Positions 3 to 22,643 of a DNA stretch of 22,821 bases are shown piece by piece. The translations under genes were made by a program, and so were the position numbers. Origin of the DNA: a virus; the IMG/VR virus record IMGVR_UViG_3300037491_000006, positions 1 through 22,821 of that record. One strand, written 5' to 3'. The notes below the pieces were generated by a model. The model was not told the DNA's origin and ran no database searches. It saw only the letters and a program-made list of their open reading frames with translations. Within the stretch, counting starts at the first letter, position 1, and each line of letters begins with the position of its first letter.

Positions 3-425
3 ATGCAGGCCCAGCAGGAGCAGGAGCGCGCGATCTGGGCGAAGGAGAGAGAGTTCGCCGAGCTGCGTGACTACGCCCAGCAGCAGGTCGCCGCGAACCG
101 CGAGCACATCGTGCCGGAACTGCTCGACCTGGTGACCGGCAGCACTCGGCAGGAAATCGACGCGTCGATCGAGACGCTCAAGACCAAGACCACCGCGATC
201 CTGCAAGGGATCTCGGGAGCACAAGCGCAGGCTGCGCAGGCCAGCCCGCGCGGGGTGTCCGTCACCGGCCGCCCCGACGTCGACCTGCTGAACGCCAACT
301 CGGGCACGCGCAATCTCAGCCCCCAGGACATCGCGAACATGTCCCCAGCCGAGTACGCGCAAAATCGGCAACAGCTCCTCGCGGCATCGTCCAACCACGT
401 CCGGACCCGAGGCCTCTACGGCTAA
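3..425 (+). CDS. Scaffold-like capsid assembly protein, C-terminal part (5' partial)
   Basis: The frame is open to the left edge, so the ATG at 3 may be internal and the true start probably lies upstream. The visible 140 residues begin with a charged, Gln/Glu-rich helical stretch (about residues 1-35) that looks coiled-coil. A segment with VTGSTRQEI followed by a helix to KTTAIL comes next (about 44-68), and the C-terminal half is Pro/Ser/Asn-rich and ends in RGLYG. This helical-then-disordered layout, directly upstream of the major capsid gene, is typical of actinophage scaffolding proteins, which guide procapsid assembly and leave or are degraded during maturation. No protease motif is visible in this part; one could lie in the missing N-terminal part. 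The role is inferred from position and composition. Confidence 0.6.
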   Translation: MQAQQEQERAIWAKEREFAELRDYAQQQVAANREHIVPELLDLVTGSTRQEIDASIETLKTKTTAILQGISGAQAQAAQASPRGVSVTGRPDVDLLNANSGTRNLSPQDIANMSPAEYAQNRQQLLAASSNHVRTRGLYG

Positions 426-458: not shown

Positions 459-2047
459 ATGGCCAATGCGATCACGGGCACCCCGAACCTCTCCGGATCG
501 CCGACCAACTACAGCGGCAGCAACACGCAGCTGAGTCCGGCGATCCAGACCATCTGGTCAACCTTGGCCACCTGGTAAAGCGATTTACCAGTGCAAACCG
601 CGCTGTATCGGTGAACCCCACCAGCCTTCGCAGAACTCGATTGTGGCAGGGGGAATACCGAGGCAACCCGTCCCGGGAAGTCCGTAGAGACTTGTGCGCG
701 CGGCGACTCCGAGAGACCTACCCAGCCGGGATAGCTGGGTCGGGCTGGAGCCGAAGATACAGTCCGAACTGCATCGATGGAAAAGATGCAGAGCCAGGCG
801 GAAACGACCTGGCCGCGTCGCCTGTGTGCGGCGAGGTAACAGTGTGCGAAGGAGATTCTCTTCCAAGCGATGCCGATCCTCCGGTTCGAGCAGTTCGCTG
901 TCAAGAAGACAGAACTCGGGGTTGCGCCCGGACTAACCATCAACTTCATGCGCTACCTCAACCAGGCTCCGCCGACCGCGGCGCTGGTCGAGGGCGTGCG
1001 CATGCAGACCAATGCGCTGAGCGCTCAGCAGTTCTCCATTACGGTGGCGGAGCAGGGCTACGCCGTCGCCGTGACCGAGCTGCTGCTCAACGCCTCGTTC
1101 GACGATGTCATGGCGTCGGCGTCCCGCCTGCTGGGCCGCAACATGGCTCAGTACCTCGACAACATGGCGCAGAACACCCTGCTGACGGCCTCGAGCCTGC
1201 TGTTCGGGTACTTCAAGGACCAGGCAGCGAGCATCACAGCGGTCTCTCCGTACGACCTGGGCTCCGTCGGCACCTCCGCCAACGGCCTGACCGGCGGGTA
1301 CTACCTGACGCCGTCAGCACTCAGGGACATCAGCGAGACCCTGGCAACCAAAAACGTCCCGCGCATCGGCGAGACCTACGTCACCTTCGTACACCCGCAC
1401 CAGTCTCGCCACCTGCGCGAGCAGCCCGAGTTCATCGAAGTCACCAAGTACGCAGCGCCCGGTCTACGGCGAGACACCTTCGCACTGGCCGCCTGATCCA
1501 GCAATGGATCAGTGAAAAACCCGAGAACTGCTGGGAAACCCGAGTCACCTACCCGCACCACAGCGTGGGGCCAAAGCCCGAGCGCGACGGTTCTAAGAAG
1601 CGAGTAGCAGGGGCAATCAGCAGCCGAGCCCGCCTGGTACGTCCGACGGGAAGGTTCACAGACCATGTACGGGTCACCCCATGAGGGTGAAGATATGGCC
1701 GGAGCTGCATGGAGACATGCAGAGGTTGGCGGAAACGACCAGCCCCACATAGCTATATGTGAGTAACAACACTGAACTTCATGCTTGGTGAGATCGGACG
1801 CCTGTTCGACCAGGTGTTCATCGAGACGACGCAGATCACGAACGCCATGAACAACGTGGCAAACCAGCAGGTTTACAACGCGATCACGATCGGCGACAAC
1901 GCCTTCGGACACGCGATCAGCCTGCCGGTCGAGCTGCGCGACGGCGGCGTCCTGGACTTCGGACGTGAACATGCACTGGCTTGGTACGCGATTCTCGGCA
2001 TGGGCCTGATCACCGATCAGTCCGTCGTGGTGACCGCGACCAACTGA
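459..2047 (+). CDS. Major capsid protein, N4-gp56-like family; three exons split by two group I introns
   Basis: The coding sequence is join(459..558, 847..1463, 1775..2047): 990 nt, 329 residues. Exon 1 starts at an ATG nine bases after GAGAGGAG (442-449) and ends after the first base of codon 34 (phase 1). Exon 2 ends after codon 239 (phase 0). The junctions read IWS-KEILFQAMPILRF and KYAAPG-NFMLGEIGRLF, continuous sequence as expected for N4-gp56-type capsid proteins, which form the shell lattice. Exon 2 carries the core (GLTINF, ALVEG, LTASSLLF, FVHPHQSRHLR) and exon 3 the C-terminal part (VFIETT, NAITIGDNAFGHA, HALAWYAIL). Without splicing, translation would stop at 576-578 (39 residues) or at 1494-1496, so neither exon set alone gives a full protein. 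A frameshifted pseudogene is unlikely because the intervening segments fold as introns and removing them restores frame exactly. Family assignment is by motif recall, not a search. Confidence 0.88.
559..846 (+). ncRNA. Group I intron 1 in the major capsid gene (288 nt, no ORF)
   Basis: The upstream exon ends in U558 and the intron ends in G846. P1 pairs UGGU (555-558) with GCCA (567-570), with U558.G567 at the splice site. CCUU (562-565) can pair with AAGG (849-852) of exon 2 as P10. P2 is CTGGTAAA (572-579)/TTTACCAG (584-591) with a GCGA loop. P3 is CCGCGC (598-603)/GCGCGG (698-703). P7 is GACUUGU (689-695)/ACAGUC (759-764) with one bulged base. An inner P8 helix is ACCCAGC (720-726)/GCTGGGT (734-740). 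GAAGATACAGTCC (753-765) matches the conserved S element of phage group I introns. P9 is CTGCATC (769-775)/GATGCAG (785-791), P9.1 is GCCAGG (793-798)/CCTGGC (808-813), and a last hairpin is TCGCC (818-822)/GGCGA (830-834). No homing endonuclease frame is present. The subgroup was not assigned and self-splicing was not shown. Confidence 0.88.
1464..1774 (+). ncRNA. Group I intron 2 in the major capsid gene (311 nt, no ORF)
   Basis: The upstream exon ends in U1463 and the intron ends in G1774. P1 pairs CGGU (1460-1463) with GCCG (1488-1491), with U1463.G1488 at the splice site. P2 is CTGATCCA (1493-1500)/TGGATCAG (1505-1512) with a GCAA loop. P3 is ACCCG (1519-1523)/CGGGU (1670-1674). A segment at 1610-1630 (GGGGCAATCAGCAGCC...) resembles the P4/P5 region of known group I introns, and GGTTCACAGACC (1653-1664) resembles the R element. 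P7 pairs GACCAU (1661-1666) with AUGGC (1695-1699), one A bulged, and AAGATATGGCC (1690-1700) is the S-like element. P8 is CACCC (1675-1679)/GGGTG (1685-1689). P9 is CTGCATG (1705-1711)/CATGCAG (1716-1722) with a GAGA loop. P9.1 is GUUGG (1725-1729)/CCAGC (1739-1743), and a last hairpin is CACATA (1746-1751)/TATGTG (1756-1761). No endonuclease frame is present. Confidence 0.88.
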
Positions 2048-5939: not shown

Positions 5940-7472
5940 ATGTCCTTGGGCCGTCCCGGCGTCTACGTCCAGGAGACGCTCTCCCCCCTGCCGTCGTCCG
6001 CCGCCAACACCGCCAATGCCATCGCGGCCTTCGTCGGCACGGCCACGTACGGCGTCTCGACCCCGCAGTTGATCACCAGCTGGGCGCAGTACAACGCGCT
6101 GTATAACGGCTTCGGCAACACGGCCGACCTGTTGCCGTACAGCGTGTACGAGTTCTTCAACAACGGCGGCCAGGCGTGCTACGTCGTGCGCGCGACCGCC
6201 TCGGACGCGGTGGCGGCCTCCCTCTCGCTCAACGACCAGCAGATGACGCCGGCCGCCCTGATGACCATCACGCAGAAGAGCGTGGGCACCCAGGGCAACG
6301 CGACCTACATCACGATCAACGCGAACCCGACCGCCGGGTACTTCGACCTGCTCATCGCGGCGGGCAGCACCTCGAACGTAGTTGAGCGCTACATCGGCGT
6401 CAGCCTCAACCCCGCCGATCCGCAGTACCTGCTCGCCCTGGTCAACTCGCCGATCTCTGGATCGCAGACCGTCACCGTCACCTACACCAGCGCCGTGAGC
6501 CCCTGGACCACCGCGCAGACCCCGGCCGCCCAGTCCAACACCCCGCTGACCGGCGGCGCCAACGGCACCACCGGCAACATCAACCTGGTCACCACCGCCG
6601 AGCAGCTCGCCAGCATCCAGGGCATCATCAACCTGAACCTGCCGGGCGTCACGACCGTGGCCACCGTCAACGCGCTGACCGCGTGGGCCGCGGGCCTCGG
6701 CAACGTCTTCCTGGTCGTCGACTGCCCGCAGGCCTCGACCACCTATGCGAGCACCGTGGCCGCCTACGAGGCCCTGGCCCCCAACGCGGAATCCGGCACC
6801 CCGTACACGCAGACCTCCTATGCCGCGATGTACGGGCCGTGGCTGATCTGCTCGGACCCCTCCGCCCTGGCCGCCGGCGCCGTGCGCACCCTGCCGCCCG
6901 GCGGCGCCGTGCTCGGCCAGTACGCGGCCATCGACCTGGCCCAGGGCCCCTACCAGGTCCCGGCAGGCGTGGGCACCACGCTGTCCGGCCCGGTCGGCGT
7001 GGACACCACGTTCCTGGCCTCGGACCTGGACGCGCTGCAAAACGACGGGGTGAACATCATCAGGCAGGTGCCAAGCTATGGATTCTGCATCATGGGAGCA
7101 AGAACCCTGACTTACGGCATGCCCAGCCGCTACATCAACATCCGCCGGACACTGATGTACATCGAGAACACCCTGGAACAGCAGCTGCAATTCGCCCTGT
7201 TCCAGCCGAACAACTCCACCCTGTGGAGCAAGATCACCGCCGTGGTCACCCAGCAGCTCCAGTCCATGATGCAGGCCGGATACTTCGCCTCGAAATCAGC
7301 GTCAACCGCTTTCTTCGTGACCTGCGACAGCTCGAACAACACGCCGACCAACCAGGCGACGGGCGTGGTCAACGTGACCGTCGGCGTCGCGCTTTCCGCG
7401 CCGGCCGAGTACGTGGTCATCGACATCGGCCTGACCCAGGAGGCGACCACCGTCACCTCGACCCTGACCTGA
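5940..7472 (+). CDS. Contractile tail sheath protein
   Basis: The product is 510 residues; GAGGAG lies ten bases before the ATG (5924-5929). The N-terminus GRPGVYVQE is the classic sheath start (PGVYveE), followed by AIAAFVGTATYG. The conserved C-terminal domain has GARTL (residues 386-390), then YINIRRTLMYIENTL and a final domain with NVTVGVALSAPAEYVVIDIGLTQ. Sheath subunits stack around the tail tube and contract to drive it through the cell envelope, so this gene makes the phage a myovirus. The length fits the family. Codon use changes visibly around 7055-7140, over the GARTL motif, with AGA, GCA, GGA, CCA and TAT codons uncommon elsewhere in the gene. Confidence 0.95.
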   Translation: MSLGRPGVYVQETLSPLPSSAANTANAIAAFVGTATYGVSTPQLITSWAQYNALYNGFGNTADLLPYSVYEFFNNGGQACYVVRATASDAVAASLSLNDQQMTPAALMTITQKSVGTQGNATYITINANPTAGYFDLLIAAGSTSNVVERYIGVSLNPADPQYLLALVNSPISGSQTVTVTYTSAVSPWTTAQTPAAQSNTPLTGGANGTTGNINLVTTAEQLASIQGIINLNLPGVTTVATVNALTAWAAGLGNVFLVVDCPQASTTYASTVAAYEALAPNAESGTPYTQTSYAAMYGPWLICSDPSALAAGAVRTLPPGGAVLGQYAAIDLAQGPYQVPAGVGTTLSGPVGVDTTFLASDLDALQNDGVNIIRQVPSYGFCIMGARTLTYGMPSRYINIRRTLMYIENTLEQQLQFALFQPNNSTLWSKITAVVTQQLQSMMQAGYFASKSASTAFFVTCDSSNNTPTNQATGVVNVTVGVALSAPAEYVVIDIGLTQEATTVTSTLT

Positions 7473-7519: not shown

Positions 7520-8107
7520 GTGAGCAGCGGCACCGTCACCCAGTCGCCGTCCCTGGCGACCTATCAGACCGACCCACTTCGCAACTTCAAGTTCATCGTC
7601 ATCATCAACAACCCGATTTTCACCCCCTCGTCCGCAGGGACGACGCCCACCTTCGGCTTCATGTCGGTCAGCGGGCTGGGTCAGCAGACTGACATCATTG
7701 CCTACCGGCAGGGTGGCTATAACACCACAACCCAGAAGATGCCTGGCCAGACGGACTTTAGCCCTCTTGTATTGCAAAAAGGACTTATCTGCGGGGACCT
7801 GGAGGCCCTCGGCTGGATGCAGTCCCTGTTCGCCGTGCAGCAGGGCTCGGGCAACTGGTCCAACAGCCAGGAATTCCGCTCGAACGTCGACATCCTGGTC
7901 ATCGACCACCCGGTGACCACGCAGACCGCCGCGGTCAAAGCCGCCTTCAGGGTCTACAACGCGTGGCCGACCCAGATCTCCTTCACGGACCTGGACGCGG
8001 CCGGCAACGGTTTCCTCGTCAGCCAGATGACACTCGCCCACGAAGGCTGGGCCCTGAACGTCGCCACGGCCGCCGGCTCCGGCAGCACCGTCACCCCGCC
8101 CACCTGA
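7520..8107 (+). CDS. Tail tube protein (T4 gp19-like)
   Basis: The product is 195 residues from the GTG at 7520, five bases after GAGGAG (7509-7514). The start DPLRNFKFIVIIN, the central VSGLGQQTDIIAYRQGGY, then KMPGQTDFSPLVLQKGLICGD and the C-terminal AFRVYNAWPTQISF match the tail-tube fold of contractile phages (G-tdvieYreGg, klpG, itLkrG). It lies directly after the sheath gene, the usual order. Tube hexamers form the inner channel and assemble on the baseplate hub along the tape measure. Codons from 7672 to 7795, over the most conserved motifs, are less GC-biased than the rest of the gene. Confidence 0.9.
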   Translation: MSSGTVTQSPSLATYQTDPLRNFKFIVIINNPIFTPSSAGTTPTFGFMSVSGLGQQTDIIAYRQGGYNTTTQKMPGQTDFSPLVLQKGLICGDLEALGWMQSLFAVQQGSGNWSNSQEFRSNVDILVIDHPVTTQTAAVKAAFRVYNAWPTQISFTDLDAAGNGFLVSQMTLAHEGWALNVATAAGSGSTVTPPT

Positions 8108-8998: not shown

Positions 8999-9139
8999 GT
9001 GCTGGAGCAGATCTCCATCCTCGCGCGTGTGCATCCCAGCTGGCGCCTGGTCGATGTGAAAAGCCTGACAATCCGGGAGCGCCGGTACTGGATGGACCTG
9101 GCGCGTTACGAGGCGGAACGGAGGTCGATGCCGCAATGA
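8999..9139 (+). CDS. Small Trp-containing protein or frameshift extension of the chaperone candidate
   Basis: From the GTG at 8999 the frame encodes 46 residues (QISILARVHPSWRLVDV, then LTIRERRYWMDLARYEAE). The W-x-L and RRYWxDLARYE pattern resembles the short second frames downstream of tail-assembly chaperone genes. No Shine-Dalgarno precedes the GTG, and the frame extends upstream across the end of the previous gene. Frameshifted expression is therefore at least as plausible as independent initiation. Its TGA overlaps the tape-measure ATG (ATGA at 9136-9139), placing it exactly where the second chaperone frame is expected. Confidence 0.6.
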   Translation: MLEQISILARVHPSWRLVDVKSLTIRERRYWMDLARYEAERRSMPQ

Positions 9140-12100
9140 ATGAACAGTCGCAGGCCCCGGGCCCGTCGCTGCGCCCGGAGCAGTCCGGCGAGCCGGCCAC
9201 CGCGGCATCGATCCTGGGCACGAACAACCTCCAGGGCAGCGTCGACTCCCTGTCCAGCTCGGTCAGCAAGCTGAGCACGGACGTCAGCGGTCTGGCCGAG
9301 CAGATCAGCGCGCAGACGGGCAAGGCGAGTGCGACCAGCTCCAGCGGCACGGCGAAGACGGCGGCGTCCTCGGCGGCCACCGGCGGCGGGTATGCCTCGC
9401 GTGCCCCGTCCGGCTCCCCGATCCGCACGATGGGCGCCGCCGCCAACGCGGTCGCAGCGAAACTCGGCGGCACGGTCGGCGGCTGGCTCAGCGGGGCAGG
9501 CGGCGGTGGGGGCGGTGGGGGCGGTGGGGGCGGTGGCCTCGGTGCGGTTGCCGGCGCTGCCGGGGGTGCTGCCGGCGGCGGTGGTGGGACCGGTGGCAGC
9601 AACCTGAAAGGCACCATCGCCGGAACGGCGGTCACCGCCGGGTTCAAGGCCCTGACCAGCTACGCACAAAACCAGGCGTCCGTCATCATGACCATGAACC
9701 GGGCCGCGACCAACGGGGTGAACAACTCCGGCATCGGCCCCGGCGGCTACGATGCGACGGCGCAGCGCGTCGTCGGCATGATCTACGGCAGCCATGGTCA
9801 GGGCCTCAACGTCACCGCCTCCTCGCCGCAGGACGCCGCGGGCGCCGCGGCGATGCTGAACTACTACAGCGGCCAGACGATGATGACCTCGAGCGGCGGG
9901 GTGAATCAGAACTGGTTCACGGCGCAGTCCGGCATGTACTCCATGGGTTACGCCAACCCGTACATGTCGCAGACGCAGATCGCCCAGAACCTCGCCTCGG
10001 TCTACAGCAACAAGTCGTTGATGACGATGTGGGGGCTGGGCTACCACCCGTCGGTCGGCGCCGGCGGCCAGCTGGCCAGCCCCATGAGCATCGCGCAGAA
10101 CGTGTTCTCCCGCACGTTCGGCGGCAAGACGTCGGTGAGCAACGCCACGATGGCCGCGGCCACCGGCGAGCGCGGCAGCCTGAACGCGAACCTCGGGTAC
10201 CTCGCGCAGCAGTCCGGCTGGTCACAGGGCACTGTCACCATGCTCGAGACCTACCTCCAGCAGCGCAACACGGCCATCAACGCCGGCGCGAACCCGAACA
10301 CCCTCGACAGCCTGATCCAGCAGGCCTCCAGCGGCAGCAAGACCGCCCAGTCCCAGCTGAGCAAATACGGCATCGGCGCGAGCACCGTCCAGAGCATCAA
10401 GGACCTGCAAGCCACCCAGACCGGGACGAGCGCCGATCAGTACTCCGCTTTCAACAATTCCCTGCAACAGTCGGTGGGCCTGCTCAACGACTTCAACCAG
10501 GCCCTCAGCGGCGTACTGGGCTCTACGCCGCTGGGCACGATGCTGGGCACCGCCGGCGGGGTCGCGGCCACCTTCCCCGGGGTGACCAACGCGTTCGGCG
10601 GCGCCGCCGGAGGGTTCACCAGCGGCATGATGAACTCCGCCGGCGGAGGCCTGGGCGGCGCGGGGATGGGACTGGCCACCAACCTCACCGGCAGCGCCCT
10701 GTCCGGTGTCGCGTTCCGCAAAGGCGGGTCGCTGGCGGCCAACGCCTGGAACCGGATGCGCGGCAACACCTCGAGCAGCGCGGCCGACGACGCCGGGGAC
10801 GCCGGCGGCGATGTGGCCGGGGACGTCGGCGGCGACGTGGCCGCCAGCGCGGCCGATGCGGGCGGCGCCGGACTGCTCGGCAGCATGGGCATGGTGGGCC
10901 TGGGCGTGGGGACCGCCTACATGGGCAGCCACCTGTCCCAGAGCGTGAGCACCTCAGTGGCGCCGGCCGGCAGCAACACCCAGGAACTGGTGCGCATGGG
11001 CGGCCTCGCCGGCTCCTACGCGCTGGCCGGCGCTGCGATCGGCAGCATTTTTCCCGGCCCCGGCACGGCGATCGGCGCGGGGATCGGCGGCATCATCGGC
11101 TTGCTGCAAGGCGCCTACGACGCCTACAAGGACCGCCAGACCGCCGCAGCCGGCAACCCGGCCGCCACCACGTCGATCATGCCGTCCGGCATCGCGGGCG
11201 TCTCCACCAACGGCGCCCCGGCCCCGATGATCACCGGGCCGAATCAGATCACCGTCGGCCAGGGCTCCGGCGCCGCGGTCGGCTCCCCGCTGCCGGGGCT
11301 CACGGGCCTGCCGAACGTCGGGGTCGCCGCGCCGCCGAGCTCCGTGACGCCCGCCGTCGGTGCCGGCGCCGCGGGCGGCGCGGGAGGCGGCGCCGTGGCC
11401 AAAGCCCTCGCCTTCGGCCTCGCCCAGGTCGGCAAGCCGTACCTGTGGGGCGGCACCGGCCCGAACGCATACGACTGCTCCGGGCTGACTCAGGCCTCGT
11501 ACAAGGCGGGCGGGGTGTCGATTCCGCGCACCAGCCAGCAGCAGATGACCATCGGCTCGCCGGTCAAGCCCGGCACCGAGGTCCAAGGTGACCTGATGTT
11601 CCCGGAGCCCGGCCACGTCGTCATGTGCCTGGGCGGCGGCAAATGCCTCGAGGCGCCGCACACGGGAACGAACGTGCGCACCCGCACGTATCAAACCTCT
11701 GAATTCCCGACGATGCGGCGGGTGGTGGCCACGGCCACCCAGCCCCAGGGCGCCGCCGGCGGCAATGCGGCGACCAACACGGCCGGCTCCGGGGCGAACA
11801 TGTCCAACCTCTCGGACTCCTCGATCGGCGGCCTGTCCGAGTTGCAGGCGTTCAACAACGCCATGAACAACGCCTTCCTTTCACCGCTGCCCACCAACGG
11901 CTCCGGCGCGCCGGTCCCCACCACCAACACCAGTTCGCCGAACTCGACGACCAACACCGAAGGCCTCAACCCGCAGTCGATGAACGGCAAGGCCAGCGAC
12001 CAGTACGGGCACACCTACCAGGTGCCCAGCGGCCCGAAGCCCCCGGGCACCCTGGCCAGCTGGATCTCCACGGCGCTGAGCATCCTCGGCCTGCCGTCCG

Positions 12101-12684
12101 CGGACAGCGACGACATCAACATCATCGCCAGCCACGAGTCCGGTGGAAACCCCTGGGCGATCAACCTGACCGACTCCAACGCGGCGGCCGGGCACCCCTC
12201 CGAGGGGCTCATGCAGACGATCCCCTCCACGTTCACCGCGCACGAGCTGCCCGGCCACACCGACATTTGGAACCCGGTCGACAACATCATGGCCGGCACG
12301 CGCTACGCGATCTCCCGCTACGGCTCGCTGGACAAGGTGCCCGGCGTCGTCGCCGTCAAGGCGAACCGGCCGTACGTCGGGTACTCCGTGGGCACCTACA
12401 ACGTGCCGAACACCGGGACCGCCCAGCTGCACGCCGGCGAAATGGTGGTCGAGGCGCCGCTGGCCAACACCATCCGCAACTCGCTACTGAAGGAGTCGCT
12501 CTACTCCCCCGGCGCAGCCGGCGCCCAGGGCGGCGGCGGGCAGGTCGCGCTGAATTTCGCGCCCGGCTCGATCAGCGTGTCGATCCCCAACGCGTCGGCG
12601 GCGTCCGCCCAGCAGGCCGCGCAGATGATCGTAGACAACATCACCAGTGACCCGCGGATCGCGCAGATGGCGGTGGGCCTGTGA
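9136..12684 (+). CDS. Tape measure protein with NlpC/P60 and lytic transglycosylase domains
   Basis: The product is 1182 residues, the largest gene here, and sets tail length. The N-terminus has Ser/Thr-rich and Gly-rich regions with a run of about 13 Gly (near residues 122-134). The centre is Ala/Gly/Ser-rich with hydrophobic stretches near 581-600 and 627-660. An NlpC/P60 endopeptidase domain spans about 755-860: GKPYLWGG, YDCSG with Cys781, PGHVVM with His827, and a further His842. A lytic transglycosylase (SLT) domain spans about 985-1085: HESGGNPWAIN with catalytic-type Glu1001, GLMQTIPSTF, and NIMAGTRYAISRYG. Carrying both an amidase-type and a glycosidase-type domain suggests local peptidoglycan degradation during DNA entry. 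The C-terminus (NTGTAQLHAGEMVV) is a familiar tape-measure ending. The stop overlaps the next start. Confidence 0.93.
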   Translation: MNEQSQAPGPSLRPEQSGEPATAASILGTNNLQGSVDSLSSSVSKLSTDVSGLAEQISAQTGKASATSSSGTAKTAASSAATGGGYASRAPSGSPIRTMGAAANAVAAKLGGTVGGWLSGAGGGGGGGGGGGGGLGAVAGAAGGAAGGGGGTGGSNLKGTIAGTAVTAGFKALTSYAQNQASVIMTMNRAATNGVNNSGIGPGGYDATAQRVVGMIYGSHGQGLNVTASSPQDAAGAAAMLNYYSGQTMMTSSGGVNQNWFTAQSGMYSMGYANPYMSQTQIAQNLASVYSNKSLMTMWGLGYHPSVGAGGQLASPMSIAQNVFSRTFGGKTSVSNATMAAATGERGSLNANLGYLAQQSGWSQGTVTMLETYLQQRNTAINAGANPNTLDSLIQQASSGSKTAQSQLSKYGIGASTVQSIKDLQATQTGTSADQYSAFNNSLQQSVGLLNDFNQALSGVLGSTPLGTMLGTAGGVAATFPGVTNAFGGAAGGFTSGMMNSAGGGLGGAGMGLATNLTGSALSGVAFRKGGSLAANAWNRMRGNTSSSAADDAGDAGGDVAGDVGGDVAASAADAGGAGLLGSMGMVGLGVGTAYMGSHLSQSVSTSVAPAGSNTQELVRMGGLAGSYALAGAAIGSIFPGPGTAIGAGIGGIIGLLQGAYDAYKDRQTAAAGNPAATTSIMPSGIAGVSTNGAPAPMITGPNQITVGQGSGAAVGSPLPGLTGLPNVGVAAPPSSVTPAVGAGAAGGAGGGAVAKALAFGLAQVGKPYLWGGTGPNAYDCSGLTQASYKAGGVSIPRTSQQQMTIGSPVKPGTEVQGDLMFPEPGHVVMCLGGGKCLEAPHTGTNVRTRTYQTSEFPTMRRVVATATQPQGAAGGNAATNTAGSGANMSNLSDSSIGGLSELQAFNNAMNNAFLSPLPTNGSGAPVPTTNTSSPNSTTNTEGLNPQSMNGKASDQYGHTYQVPSGPKPPGTLASWISTALSILGLPSADSDDINIIASHESGGNPWAINLTDSNAAAGHPSEGLMQTIPSTFTAHELPGHTDIWNPVDNIMAGTRYAISRYGSLDKVPGVVAVKANRPYVGYSVGTYNVPNTGTAQLHAGEMVVEAPLANTIRNSLLKESLYSPGAAGAQGGGGQVALNFAPGSISVSIPNASAASAQQAAQMIVDNITSDPRIAQMAVGL
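9502..9537 (+). repeat. Nine-base tandem repeat encoding poly-glycine in the tape measure
   Basis: Four tandem copies of GGCGGTGGG, the last ending GGC, lie in frame and encode Gly-Gly-Gly each. Copy-number change by slippage would alter the protein by three residues at a time without breaking the frame. It looks like a flexible linker and probably expanded by slippage. Confidence 0.85.
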
Positions 12685-17504: not shown

Positions 17505-18281
17505 ATGGGCAGCGCCACCTACCCGGCCGCCGTACGCACGTTCAGTGAGAAAACCGACAACGTCACCACCGTCGACGCGAGCGACGTCAACAGCCTGCAA
17601 GACGAGGTGGTCGCGATCGAGACGACGTTGGGCGTCAATCCCGCTGTCTACGCCCCGGTCGGCGTGCCGCCGACGCCCTACGGCTCGGTCGCCGCGCGCC
17701 TGGCCGCGCACGAGGCCTATATGGCGGAGCTCGAAAACCAGATCAACCTGCTGTCTTTCGCGGCGGCCGACGGCTGGTCGACGCCGGTGCTGCGCCTGAG
17801 CCAGGGCGGCGTCACACCACCGGTGATCAACCTGCTGCACGGCACCGGCTACGCCCCGGTGGTCTGGAACACCGCCCCGACGCAGGACCCGGGCCACATG
17901 TGGACCCCCGGCAGCGTCCTGACCTGCGTGCTCGGCGGCTGGTACAACCTGGAGTACTCGCTGACGGCCGCCGTGGACTGGACCACCCTGAACACAGTGC
18001 AGGCCAGCAACAACGCGCTGGGCATGGTGCCGATCCCGTTGGCCATGCAGCGCGTGATCATGCAGGTCGCCATCAACGGCACCGTGGTCAGCCAGGACTC
18101 CTCCGTGATGGTGTGGACCAACCAGGCATACGGCCTGCCGCACAACATCTGCGCCGCCTACTCCGGCCCCCTGAACCAGGGCGACGTGATCACTGTGCTC
18201 ACCGGGGAGTACTCCGGCCTGGTCACCGCCACCGCGGGGTTCGCCGCCACGTTCGTGCGGGGCCTGCCGGGAGTCGACTGA
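17505..18281 (+). CDS. Minor tail / fibre-adaptor protein
   Basis: The product is 258 residues, starting directly after the gpJ stop. The N-terminus has the repeated phage motif FSEKTDNVTTVDASDVNSLQ followed by DEVVAIETTLGVNP, a short segment often found at the base of actinophage and firmicute tail proteins (D-v-a--vN-lq-ev-aiE--LG). A short Ala/Glu-rich helix follows (about 63-82). The rest is a beta-rich domain (about 85-258) that could be C1q- or fibre-head-like. It probably attaches to the wedge ring and displays an adhesion domain. The ligand is unknown. Confidence 0.65.
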   Translation: MGSATYPAAVRTFSEKTDNVTTVDASDVNSLQDEVVAIETTLGVNPAVYAPVGVPPTPYGSVAARLAAHEAYMAELENQINLLSFAAADGWSTPVLRLSQGGVTPPVINLLHGTGYAPVVWNTAPTQDPGHMWTPGSVLTCVLGGWYNLEYSLTAAVDWTTLNTVQASNNALGMVPIPLAMQRVIMQVAINGTVVSQDSSVMVWTNQAYGLPHNICAAYSGPLNQGDVITVLTGEYSGLVTATAGFAATFVRGLPGVD

Positions 18282-19927
18282 TGGCCGTCTACGGCGTCGC
18301 GGTCTACGGCAAGGAACTCTACGGCGCGCCGCTGATCTCGGCCTACACCGTCCAGGGGCTGACCGCCAACCAGGACGACTTCGGGCGCATCACCGTGTCG
18401 TGGACCTCCCCGCCGCTGGCCGACTGGTCGCAGCTGATCCTCGTGCGCAGCGGCTACGGGTTCCCCGTCGCGCCGACCGACGGCGTCCTGCTGGCCACGT
18501 GGGACACGACCGGCACCCCGCAGTCCTACACCGACCTGGGCCTTAGTCCCGGCTACTGGTACTACACGCTGTTCATCACCGCGGACTTCGCCAGCTGGAC
18601 GGCCGACACCGTCTACTCCAGCGGCGACCAGGTGGCCTACGGCGGGTCGGTCTGGATGTGCCTGGCGCCCTACGCCCTGGACGTCACCCCCGGCTCGAAC
18701 GACGCCGTGTGGATTCCGGACAGCGAGATCGTCCAGTACATCCCGGCCGGGTCGATCTCCAGCCTGGCCGTGGTCGACCACGGCTACGGCGCGATGCTCT
18801 ACACCCAGATGCCCGCCGCCTACAAGACCGCCCCGGCCAGCTCCACCGACACCGGCCCGGACAACGACGACCTCCAGGACTTTCTCAATGTGCTGGGATT
18901 CGGGTTCTCGACAGTCGCCACCGAGCTGGACGACCTGCTCGCTGCGTACGACGTGACCACCGTGCGCCAGGACCGGCTCTACGCGATCAGCCAGACCCTC
19001 GGCCTGCTCGACGAGATGGGCTCCAGCGCCCGCTTCCAGCGCCTGCGCACCTTGAACGCGGCGAAGATCAACCAACAGCACGGCACCCAGAACGGCATCC
19101 TCGATCTGATCTCCAGCGCCACCGGCCTGCCGACGCAGATCGAGACCGGCTACAACCTGCTGCTTGGTCAGGACCAGTCCGCGTTCGCCGACCCGATTCC
19201 CGCGCCCTGGTCCGCCGCGGCCACCTACCAGGCCAGCCAGCAGGTCTCCTACCAGGGCGTACGCTACACGTGCATCGGGTTCTCGCAAACCACGAATGCG
19301 GCCTCCTACGGTGCCCAGGGGGTCACCGCGACGCCGAACGCGCTCAGTACCCCGAGCCTGGGCGGCATCACACAGGTCAAAGAAGCCGCCGTGGCGCCGG
19401 CATCGATCACCATCCCGTTCACCGTCACCGAGCCCGGCGCCTACTACGCGCAGGTCGCCGTGGACGCCGCAGCGGACCACGGCATCCTGACCGCGGCCAT
19501 CAACGGCACAGCCGTCACCCTCGCGCCGCTGCCCACCGCGCTGCCCACCGGATTCGGCCTGGCCCCACCGCCGCCGAGCGCATTCGTCGACCAACTCGAC
19601 CTGTACGCCCCGTCCGCCACCGCCCTGTGCACCGTGCAGAGCTCCACCGTGCCGCTGTCCGCCGGCAGCTACACCCTGGTCCTGAGCACGACCGCGAAAA
19701 ACCCCGCGTCCAGCGGATACTCGATCGCGTTCAGCCAGGCACTGATCACCGGGGCGTTGCCGGTCTACGCAGCCGGCGCGCCCCCGCCCTCGGCGCCCTC
19801 GCAGTGGTCGGCCACCGCCACCACCTCGAGCAGCACCCTGTACGCCAATGCGGCCACCGGCGCCCAGGGCACCTGGAGCGTGCTGGCCGGCGCCGCCACG
19901 CTCGCCATCGGATATCTGGGAGGCTGA
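18281..19927 (+). CDS. gpI-like tail protein with FnIII-like and carbohydrate-binding modules
   Basis: The product is 548 residues from the ATG at 18281, which shares one base with the previous stop; an in-frame ATG at 17900 lies inside the upstream gene. An FnIII-like domain spans about 20-100 (GRITVSWTSPP, PGYWYYTLFI). A segment resembling a chitin/cellulose-binding module follows at about 106-128 (WTADTVYSSGDQVAYGGSVWMC). The gpI-type core at about 165-300 has LQDFLNVLGFGFSTVATELDD, TLGLLDEMGSSARFQRL and KINQQHGTQNGILDLISSATGL. A second module-like segment, WSAAATYQASQQVSYQGVRYTC, lies at about 310-332. The C-terminal 200 residues are Ala/Ser/Thr-rich beta structure. gpI links wedges to fibres. 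The extra modules suggest direct surface binding. Confidence 0.72.
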   Translation: MAVYGVAVYGKELYGAPLISAYTVQGLTANQDDFGRITVSWTSPPLADWSQLILVRSGYGFPVAPTDGVLLATWDTTGTPQSYTDLGLSPGYWYYTLFITADFASWTADTVYSSGDQVAYGGSVWMCLAPYALDVTPGSNDAVWIPDSEIVQYIPAGSISSLAVVDHGYGAMLYTQMPAAYKTAPASSTDTGPDNDDLQDFLNVLGFGFSTVATELDDLLAAYDVTTVRQDRLYAISQTLGLLDEMGSSARFQRLRTLNAAKINQQHGTQNGILDLISSATGLPTQIETGYNLLLGQDQSAFADPIPAPWSAAATYQASQQVSYQGVRYTCIGFSQTTNAASYGAQGVTATPNALSTPSLGGITQVKEAAVAPASITIPFTVTEPGAYYAQVAVDAAADHGILTAAINGTAVTLAPLPTALPTGFGLAPPPPSAFVDQLDLYAPSATALCTVQSSTVPLSAGSYTLVLSTTAKNPASSGYSIAFSQALITGALPVYAAGAPPPSAPSQWSATATTSSSTLYANAATGAQGTWSVLAGAATLAIGYLGG

Positions 19928-19929
19928 AC

Positions 19930-21012
19930 ATGACCCTGCCGATCGCGAACCAGAACTGGCTGACCGCCACGCCCACCGGGTCGACCCCCACCCTCCTGAC
20001 CACCGCGTCCTACCCGGCGATCACCGCCTGGTCCGGCACGGTGACCTACCAGGCCGGTGCGATCGTCACCGGCCCGGACACCCTGCAATACCAGGCCCTG
20101 GTACAGAACACGAATATCGCGCCGCCCGCCCCGGCGACCTGGACGCGCACCGCGTATACGAGCCCGGACAAGGGGATGCTCGCGCAGAGCGCCGTCGCCC
20201 TGCCCTATCTGCCCGAATGGGACCCGGCCACCGCGTATACTCCCGGCACGCAGGTCGTCTACGGCAACAACACGTTCCTGACGATCGACGGCAGCCGGGG
20301 CGTGACCCCGCCGGTCGTCCCGAACAGCAACAGTGACTGGGAATGGGTCGGCTCCTCCCAGGCCGGCACGCTCGCCTCCTGCTACGTCGCCGGCGGCAGT
20401 TACAGCGCGACCGTGTACACCGGCACGTCTTATTTCGATAGTGACGGCGCGCTGATCGCCGCACCCAGCGGCATGTCCAGCACCGGCGCCACGATCACGA
20501 TGCCGCTGTTCGCGAGTCTGACCGACGACATGACAGAGCTGTACTACACCAACGGCAACACGCTCGGCTACCTGTGGCTCGCGAACCCGCTCGGGTTCTG
20601 GCAGATTTCCGATGGCATGCTCTATGGCTCCCTCACCTATTCCGGAGCGCAGGCCATGAAGCTGCTGACCGTTCAAGACCTGCGTTCGGACTGCTGCATC
20701 GGAGTGACCGCGCAGACGGAGGTTGCCGCCGGCACCGAGGTCGGCATTATTTTCCGGTTGGATATCGACACGCAGAACTACTGGACCGCCTCCCGCTCCC
20801 AGATTCAAAAAGTGGTGCTGGGCGTCGCGACGACCATGGCCACTTATACCCGGTTGCCGGTCGGCTCGCGTTTCTACGTCCAACTCAGCGGCCCGGCGAT
20901 CCACCTGTACGCCTACCCGGGCAACGCGGCAGCCCCGGTGCTGATCGCCTCGGTCTCCGACTCCTTCAATCAGGGCTCGGTCAATCACGGGCTCTACCAG
21001 CAGGTTATCTGA
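19930..21012 (+). CDS. Tail fibre / receptor-binding protein candidate
   Basis: The product is 360 residues. The first 120 residues hold two segments like those in the gpI-like protein: WSGTVTYQAGAIVTGPDTLQYQ (about 34-56) and WDPATAYTPGTQVVYGNNTF (about 97-117). They fit a W...Y..G..V.Y....Y pattern seen in small carbohydrate-binding modules. The C-terminal half (about 215-360) resembles a jelly-roll or LamG-type domain (DLRSDCCIGVTAQTEV, VGIIFRLDIDTQNYWTASRS, FYVQLSGPAIHLYAYPG). Part of this half (20600-20880) is less GC-rich than its neighbours. It probably binds a cell-surface glycan. Its stop shares one base with the next start. Confidence 0.6.
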   Translation: MTLPIANQNWLTATPTGSTPTLLTTASYPAITAWSGTVTYQAGAIVTGPDTLQYQALVQNTNIAPPAPATWTRTAYTSPDKGMLAQSAVALPYLPEWDPATAYTPGTQVVYGNNTFLTIDGSRGVTPPVVPNSNSDWEWVGSSQAGTLASCYVAGGSYSATVYTGTSYFDSDGALIAAPSGMSSTGATITMPLFASLTDDMTELYYTNGNTLGYLWLANPLGFWQISDGMLYGSLTYSGAQAMKLLTVQDLRSDCCIGVTAQTEVAAGTEVGIIFRLDIDTQNYWTASRSQIQKVVLGVATTMATYTRLPVGSRFYVQLSGPAIHLYAYPGNAAAPVLIASVSDSFNQGSVNHGLYQQVI

Positions 21013-22643
21013 TGACGATCAATATCAGCGCCTCCGGCGAGAGCTACAGCTTCGGCGCGGCCGCAGCCACCGGCACCTCCCTGGCCATCGCGATCACCGC
21101 GGCCGGCAGCTCGCAGTCCGCAGGCGATGCCGCCGTCGTCCTCGCGCTGCCGCCAGGGGGCCTGACCGACTTCGGGATCTGGGACCTCAATGGCGTCGAC
21201 CCGGCGATCAGCTGCCTGATGACCTCGATCGCCGGAACGCCGAACGGGCGCGCCTCGTGCGCCTCGACCGTCCCGATCCAGTACACCACGGCGCTCGGCA
21301 CGCTGTGGAACGGCGCCCAGTGGGCCGCCGTGCGCATGATCTGGGACAGCGAAAGCCCCGCCGCGATCACCGCCGTGCAGATCGAATCGGTCACCCTCGG
21401 CAACCTGCTGCCGCCGGACGCGGCGGATTACCGCACCCGCCTGGCCTACACCCCGCTAACCGACAACGCCACCGTCTCACGTACCGACGAGTTGGCGCTG
21501 AGCGGTACCTATGCCGGAAAACTGGTCAATGTCGGCGGCTATGTCGAGTATTCGATGGCGCCGATGGACATCTCGGTCGTGCCCTGCACCCCCGGCGACG
21601 TGATTACCGCGTCGGTCAACGTCGCCATGCAAGACGCCGGCGCCGAAGTCTCCGCCGTGTTGCAGTTCTACTACGCGAACATGGAGCCCCGGGGCATCTC
21701 CGGCAGCCTTGCCATCATCCATCCGGGCGGGTTCGCCTGGGTGAAGCCGACCGTGCAAAGCCCGGTGCTCTCCGGCGCCGCCTACGTCGGGGTCGTGCCC
21801 ACGATCTTTCGCTCGCCGCCCATCGCCGGCGAGGTCGCGTATGTCGACTGCCACCATATCGCCAGCGGCATCCCCTCGATTTCGCTCGCTCCAAGCGCCT
21901 ACCAGGCGCCGCGCCAGCAGAACATCACAATCCTGCCGAACCGCGCGAATTTGATGTTCAACCCCGGGTTCAATTCCTCCACCAGCTCCTGGTGGGCCAC
22001 CGGCGGCCCGTCCCCGGAGTTGACCTGGGACGAGACGGTCGGGCGCACCAAGCCCGGCGCCGCGAAACTCGTGGCGAGCTACGGCTCGGGCACCTGGCCG
22101 CAGATCGGCTCTCAGAGCGCCACGACGCAGGCCGCGCGCGGCATGGCGCTGCTGACCCCCGGGGTGACCTACACCGTCTCCGGCTGGGTCCTGGCCGCCC
22201 CGGGCATGCCCGCGATCGGCATCACGGTGCAGATCGACGGCGACGTGTATTTCAACGGCTCCACCACCGTGGACGCCCTGGCGGACGACACACTCCAGGA
22301 TGCCGGCTGGCTGCGCACCTACCTGACCTTCACCGTGCCGCAGAGCACATCGGGCAACACGTCGGTGATTTTCGGCACCACCCAGGCCGGCTGGAGCGCG
22401 TTCGCGAACGCGGTGACGTTCTGGGTCGACGACGTGCTGTGCGAGCAGACCCCGGTGCTCACCGGCTATTTCGACGGCGACGAGCCGAGCCTGGACTACA
22501 TGTGGGCCGGGGCCAACGACGCCTCGCCGTCCCTGTATTACCGGGATTTCCGGGCGCTGCAATACCGTCTAGATGAGCTCGTCGCACCGGCGCTGCCGCT
22601 CGGCGTGCCCTACGCGTTGAATTTCACCTTGCCGTATTCGTGA
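21012..22643 (+). CDS. Tail protein with two CBM4/9-like domains
   Basis: The product is 543 residues from the ATG at 21012; upstream in-frame ATGs lie inside the previous gene. The N-terminal 130 residues look beta-rich (FGAAAATGTSLAIAITAAG). Two jelly-roll-type domains follow. The first is at about 155-300 (LSGTYAGKLVN, PCTPGDVITASVNV, GAAYVGVVPTIFRS). The second is at about 313-480 (NLMFNPGFNSSTSSWWATGG, TPGVTYTVSGWVLA, FWVDDVLCEQ). Both follow the NPgFE...W pattern, with GvtYtvSgwv, of CBM4/9-like modules. TGYFDGDEPSLDYMWAG (from about 484) is a common ending of this domain in actinophage tail proteins. The final helix (RALQYRLDELVAP) may oligomerise. It probably completes the distal adhesion apparatus. 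Confidence 0.68.
   Translation: MTINISASGESYSFGAAAATGTSLAIAITAAGSSQSAGDAAVVLALPPGGLTDFGIWDLNGVDPAISCLMTSIAGTPNGRASCASTVPIQYTTALGTLWNGAQWAAVRMIWDSESPAAITAVQIESVTLGNLLPPDAADYRTRLAYTPLTDNATVSRTDELALSGTYAGKLVNVGGYVEYSMAPMDISVVPCTPGDVITASVNVAMQDAGAEVSAVLQFYYANMEPRGISGSLAIIHPGGFAWVKPTVQSPVLSGAAYVGVVPTIFRSPPIAGEVAYVDCHHIASGIPSISLAPSAYQAPRQQNITILPNRANLMFNPGFNSSTSSWWATGGPSPELTWDETVGRTKPGAAKLVASYGSGTWPQIGSQSATTQAARGMALLTPGVTYTVSGWVLAAPGMPAIGITVQIDGDVYFNGSTTVDALADDTLQDAGWLRTYLTFTVPQSTSGNTSVIFGTTQAGWSAFANAVTFWVDDVLCEQTPVLTGYFDGDEPSLDYMWAGANDASPSLYYRDFRALQYRLDELVAPALPLGVPYALNFTLPYS

Follow-up and report, generated by a model that had tools for sequence, protein, structure and literature searches.

Group I introns in structural genes of actinophages have been described in Cluster J mycobacteriophages, for which RT-PCR showed splicing of an intron in a tail gene of BAKA, with the 3' splice site at 28450, and of another in the capsid gene of LittleE (PMC3706429), so there is precedent for one such spliced intron in the capsid gene of an actinophage. 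The LittleE intron, of approximately 0.8 kb, carries an endonuclease gene and resides in a siphovirus, and the intron of BAKA and Optimus is a single, endonuclease-less element of 265 nt located in a minor tail gene (PMC3706429); a capsid intron in lactococcal phage Tuc2009 is cited in the same paper. Several group I introns within one structural gene are on record for Staphylococcus phage Twort, whose tail tube gene, orf142, contains three (Landthaler and Shub 1999, as cited in PMC11878797). In fungal rDNA, related group I introns occur at several sites, with short flanks matching the guide, and are thought to spread via reverse splicing (PMC1299323), a process that, according to a review, requires 4 to 6 matching bases and for which direct proof is absent (PMC3984707). 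A 2025 survey raises the question of why introns in phages are confined to genes of nucleotide and DNA metabolism (PMC11878797).

The capsid locus considered here lies near the start of an IMG/VR fragment of 22,821 nucleotides (the window) from a bacterial virus of soil. The window shares with LittleE the interruption of an actinophage's major capsid gene by group I sequence, an exon ending in U, an intron ending in G and a related core, but it contains two small endonuclease-less introns rather than a single long one. The BAKA/Optimus intron belongs to the same family and is likewise endonuclease-less, yet it is alone in its gene and that gene is not for the capsid. Twort, in the account cited, is comparable by description, and differs in its low-GC host, in the gene concerned (tail tube, not capsid) and in having three introns at most. 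Finally, whereas the fungal introns reside in eukaryotic rRNA genes, those described here interrupt a phage protein gene for which intact homologues are available.

A major capsid gene in three exons

The preliminary description, made from the letters alone, had proposed that three reading-frame pieces encode consecutive parts of one capsid protein of 329 codons, and spliced alignment, profile matching and intact homologues all bear this out. Joining exon 1 (459–558; codons 1–33 and the first base of codon 34, with the same N-terminus as in relatives L002 and L092), exon 2 (847–1463; through codon 239) and exon 3 (1775–2047; codons 240–329 and the stop), all on the plus strand, yields 330 codons including the stop, with no internal stops. 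In a profile search, the joined protein matches phrog_1357 (major head protein) over residues 18–328 of 329 (E = 5.7e-64), and this coverage of nearly the whole protein places it among the BRock-like major capsid proteins. It is 83% identical to the product of the uninterrupted L002 gene, and with the product annotated as capsid protein in Streptomyces phage BRock it shares 71% identity. Uninterrupted homologues with 65–83% identity were found in the 80 top viral contigs (full length in 79), and intact homologues are also present in Terracoccus, Nonomuraea and Herbidospora genomes. Both intervening segments are absent from the intact homologues, and the exons join in frame; the motifs IWSKEILFQ and YAAPGNF, which had been noted to become continuous upon joining, are approximately 90% conserved among intact relatives. 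All three exons evolve under purifying selection (NG86 dN/dS of 0.12 relative to L002). Without splicing, exon 1 would run into a stop at 577–579 and exon 2 into another at 1494–1496. Comparison of the capsid protein with solved structures by sequence gave no match.

The junctions were located with a purpose-written dynamic-programming aligner of a capsid profile to DNA, in which introns may open only after T and close only after G. Alignment of the first 2600 bases, with no junctions supplied, returned introns at 559–846 and 1464–1774, exactly to the base of the previously proposed junctions 558/847 and 1463/1775, with a profile of intact homologues that also contained the window's own joined protein (1 of 75 rows), so that the test is not wholly independent. 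Intron 1 follows codon 33 in phase 1 (site 33.1) and intron 2 follows codon 239 in phase 0 (site 239.0). Plain blastn alignments to homologues break at matching places (557–559/847–849 and 1462/1774–1775). The joining is unambiguous, because moving the junctions of intron 1 by one base, which C559 = C847 would permit, would violate the rule that the 5' exon ends in U and the intron in G.

The gene upstream of the capsid gene (3–425, plus strand) shows a weak match to head scaffolding proteins (phrog_2592, E = 7.6e-4) and adjoins the capsid gene in relatives too, as judged by tblastn. Downstream follow the genes for the sheath of a contractile tail (5940–7472, plus strand; phrog_23, E = 2e-46), the tail tube, which is uninterrupted in the window (7520–8107, plus strand; phrog_4542, E = 2.6e-26), the tape measure and the baseplate. 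Together with the BRock-like relatives and the homologues in actinomycete genomes, these matches indicate that the earlier placement of the window phage among actinophage-like, contractile-tailed viruses is right. The C-terminal half of the tape measure protein (9136–12684) reads like a putative cell-wall hydrolase, judging from NlpC/P60-like and transglycosylase-like motifs. Two tail-end proteins (18278–19927 and 21012–22643) have carbohydrate-binding modules CBM_5_12 and CBM_4_9, suggesting binding to a host glycan.

Fold and kinship of the two introns

Both segments are group I introns, as the preliminary description had it. Intron 1 (559–846, plus strand, 288 nt) is of type A and intron 2 (1464–1774, plus strand, 311 nt) of type B, and neither contains an endonuclease ORF. 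A search with the Rfam group I model RF00028 went only half way, recovering intron 2 (1470–1722) by a narrow pass of 51.6 bits versus a gathering threshold of 50 and missing intron 1. Covariance models were built from each type without the intron of the other: R2, made from type B introns alone (intron 1 excluded), finds intron 1 at 98 bits (E = 6.9e-33), and R1, made from type A introns alone (intron 2 excluded), finds intron 2 at E = 2.5e-25; the RF00028 match to intron 2 and the R2 match to intron 1 extend over the catalytic core. No third intron was found in the window by the type A and type B models.

In intron 1, P1 (555–570) is formed by 4 pairs between exon UGGU (555–558) and guide GCCA (567–570), including U558•G567, and P10 by 3 pairs between CGA (847–849) and UUG (564–566). 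P3 (598–703) joins CCGCGC (598–603) to GCGCGG (698–703), and in P7, the guanosine-binding helix (687–765), G687, G689–C691, U693 and G694 pair with C760–C765, leaving A688 bulged and U692 as an extra base. In intron 2, P1 (1460–1491) pairs exon CGGU (1460–1463) with guide GCCG (1488–1491), including U1463•G1488, and an adjacent P10 was not found; its P7 (1659–1701) consists of C1659–G1701, G1661–C1700, the mismatch A1662•C1699, C1663–G1698, C1664–G1697, A1665–U1696 and U1666–A1695. Both 5' exons end in a U paired to a guide G, and the introns end in G846 and G1774, in agreement with the terminal bases reported previously.

The folds were evaluated on alignments of 21 type A introns (intron 1 among them) and 21 type B introns (intron 2 among them). 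With the pseudoknot of P3 and P7 named, 97.8% of cells are paired and 29 of 54 pairs show double changes in type A, compared to 98.6% and 45 of 81 in type B, bearing in mind that each fold was derived from the tested sequences themselves, which favours the pairing figures and, less so, the double changes. None of 500 shuffles of either alignment reaches the observed level, and slid controls drop to 30–41%. Compensatory changes affect P3, P7 and other helices, as expected of a pseudoknotted core. Used alone, RNAalifold wrongly paired the 5' strand of P3 with the 3' strand of P7 in type A, and this solution was discarded in favor of the named and counted P3 and P7. The A1662•C1699 mismatch of intron 2 adjoins the guanosine-binding pair and does not recur in any other of the 21 type B introns; it could, together with the missing adjacent P10, make intron 2 splice slowly, as could the extra U in P7 for intron 1.

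Among 50,697 phage records, blastn with intron 1 matched only Cluster J mycobacteriophages (the tail intron and the LittleE capsid gene), and intron 2 had no match in cultured phages. The R1 model scores the BAKA intron at E = 5.1e-64, with a 3' end at 28450, identical to the RT-PCR splice site, and the LittleE capsid intron at E = 3.4e-53, so that the latter is related to intron 1 by both blastn and the model. Since R1 finds introns proven by RT-PCR, the family to which intron 1 belongs is spliced in vivo, in members other than the window phage. Three actinomycete genomes that carry intact capsid homologues gave no match to the type A model.

Introns across the capsid family

Relatives were gathered by 3 scans for intron sequence patterns, blind to the gene, which yielded about 170 viral loci; as these were selected by their introns, the intron counts below do not give frequencies in the whole population. 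This capsid family has introns at 36 other loci, a count that includes some near-copies and some adjoining parts of a single record. The capsid introns, of which 50 are distinct, measure 234–321 nt, their longest stop-free stretch is 103 aa, and none of them encodes the endonuclease by which a homing intron would be recognized. They occupy 13 sites (codon and phase 33.1, 37.2, 46.1, 51.2, 69.1, 99.2, 130.0, 139.0, 231.2, 239.0, 252.2, 302.0 and 308.1) and fall in all three codon phases, with five introns per gene in L086 and in L131 and four in L126. Once the introns are removed, each of the 30 complete intron-bearing relatives has an open frame of 326–381 aa, free of internal stops and closed by a stop codon. 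Site 239.0 is common to the window and L126, in which the introns are 85% identical and sisters at full support. Candidate introns of 153–165 nt at codons 260–273 of some relatives were excluded as in-frame loop insertions; in L086, L142, L154, L172, L232 and L240, in-frame insertions of about 50 residues near these codons mark a variable loop.

The preliminary description had called two introns in one capsid gene of an actinophage-like myovirus unusual. With a spliced capsid intron of LittleE published and relatives carrying up to five, two is not extreme; as far as the literature searched shows, most subscription papers lying outside it, a capsid-biased family with up to five introns per gene and 13 sites has not been described.

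In 30 whole records, the introns of phages bearing this capsid are nearly all within the capsid gene. The capsid gene holds all 4 introns of an 82.9-kb record, both introns of a 104.9-kb record and 3 of the 4 in a 98.4-kb record, the fourth being in the tail tube gene; the records were chosen for a capsid intron, and once one intron per record is set aside for this, 6 of the other 7 in these three large records reside in a gene that makes up approximately 1% of the genome. A 35-kb record carries two more introns upstream of the capsid gene, and 11 records with an intact capsid gene, BRock included, had no introns found. In other phages, exons beside related introns most commonly match major head proteins (phrog_10 for 36 of 139 exon peptides and phrog_617 for 11; Pfam Phage_capsid for 36), followed by the unnamed family phrog_13692 (13), which may be another virion protein, and then by major tail proteins; polymerase, reductase and terminase, the usual intron hosts, are not among the exon families listed. 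Endonuclease matches beside related introns seem to be ORFs inside longer introns.

Several further loci are of note. An intron of the same family splits the coding sequence of the tail tube protein between residues 75 and 76 in L191 (4224–4512) and L210 (510–798), the latter record having three capsid introns as well. In L169, L180, L194, L216, L245 and L249, related group I introns lie at or beside genes of phrog_13692, several to a gene, with about 3–7 model matches over a few kb, and L238 (2546–10049), a low-GC (30–38%) viral contig, is extremely intron-dense, the type B model matching it roughly twelve times in 8 kb. Other phages (L161, L165, L168, L179 and L246) have longer introns of this family in their capsid genes, apparently with an endonuclease VII-like ORF inside.

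Could the window instead contain a decayed or assembly-broken gene, with the segments being dead insertions and no capsid made? It is a metagenomic fragment known as DNA, and intron 2 has a mismatch in P7; against this stand the purifying selection on all three exons, the exact restoration of the frame in every complete relative, the sister intron at the same site in L126 and the covariation of the segments as structured RNAs, which make decay very improbable. Slightly less probable still is separate translation of the three pieces into a split capsid protein that assembles, with the segments as spacers. Exon 2 does have an ATG at 870 behind AAGGAG at 849–854, and exon 3 an ATG at 1781, but AAG GAG encodes a Lys-Glu conserved in nearly all intact relatives and is 15 bases away, a ribosome site before 1781 is absent, residues 34–42 and 240–241 would be lost, and the segments are group I RNAs.

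Guide match and possible routes of intron spread

The exon sequence at the insertion sites ends in GGT at 11 of 13 sites and in CCT at the other 2, and the guides correspond, being GCC where the site is GGU and GGG where it is CCU. As 9.8% of the T positions of intact genes are the end of a GGT, 11 of 13 would arise by chance with a probability of about 5e-10 if the sites are independent. P1 alone, over a wide search range, is weakly specific (a median of 21% of U positions score equally well); P1 and P10 combined, within 36 nt, are specific. By this measure, 49 of 50 introns pair better with their own exons than with those of other sites, and with one intron per site the observed sum was reached in 1 of 5000 permutations. 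The sites also lie in conserved codons (0.95 versus 0.85; 16 of 10000 permutations). The intron tree has two lineages, on which the 13 sites require 20 changes, the minimum being 12. Sites 46.1, 51.2, 231.2 and 252.2 each contain both lineages and must therefore have been entered at least twice. Near-identical introns are found at different sites (94% identity between L086 at 231.2 and L232 at 51.2), and the two L228 introns, located at 51.2 and 302.0, are closer to one another than to any other intron. This is ectopic intron movement, within this capsid gene or via unsampled sites.

The gene structure, the group I fold with its covariation, the guide-exon match and the repeated ectopic gain, all established by computation, are very probably accounted for by two self-removing introns, a capsid made from spliced mRNA only, and two endonuclease-less lineages that repeatedly entered the capsid family. 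GTP would attack after U558 and U1463, aligned by P1, followed by exon ligation after G846 and G1774; early stops in each intron would keep ribosomes out of the core, and full-length capsid protein would come only from spliced late mRNA. Splicing in the window phage itself is inferred, with good support from sequence, structure and precedent. Two related endonuclease-less lineages would have entered the gene family nearly always after GGU, where the guide pairs with the exon, and we infer that they spread by guide-directed insertion, whether abundant late mRNA is the target of reverse splicing or copying occurs at the DNA level with the guide match as a filter. Neither a reverse transcriptase nor an endonuclease was seen in the window, leaving the mobility step without a visible enzyme, and the P1 match may reflect survival of the insertions able to splice rather than targeting.

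The mobility part of this explanation competes with one in which the introns splice but owe their spread to homing endonucleases that act in trans at the DNA level (collaborative homing) rather than to RNA insertion. The LittleE intron carries an endonuclease gene, endonuclease VII/HNH ORFs follow capsid introns in some other phages, the sites lie in conserved motifs, and phages recombine readily. Yet an endonuclease gene would not fit into any of the 50 distinct capsid introns, and 13 sites that share only GGU (or CCU) are far below the specificity of a homing enzyme; weighing these, we give trans homing somewhat less than an even chance. Guide-directed reverse splicing fits the frame-independent GGU sites, the lack of endonucleases and the bias to what are presumably the most transcribed late genes. 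These features are explained almost equally well by copying at the DNA level, given an enzyme in trans and selection for insertions that can splice. The fuller proposal, that the introns move through RNA, reverse-splicing at guide-matching GGU of the most abundant late mRNAs (capsid, then tail tube) from which copies return to the genome, with the capsid gene as a sink, is tentative and on balance rather unlikely.

Occupation of 13 sites of one gene, introns 94% alike at different sites, site-matched guides and no endonuclease constitute a type of evidence best documented in rDNA (PMC3984707). The distribution is the opposite of the pattern surveyed in 2025 (PMC11878797), in that this intron family resides mainly in major capsid and tail genes, whose product is needed in huge amounts, after splicing. 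Phages allow direct testing of RNA-level intron mobility, and the capsid gene is a natural test of how such elements jump.
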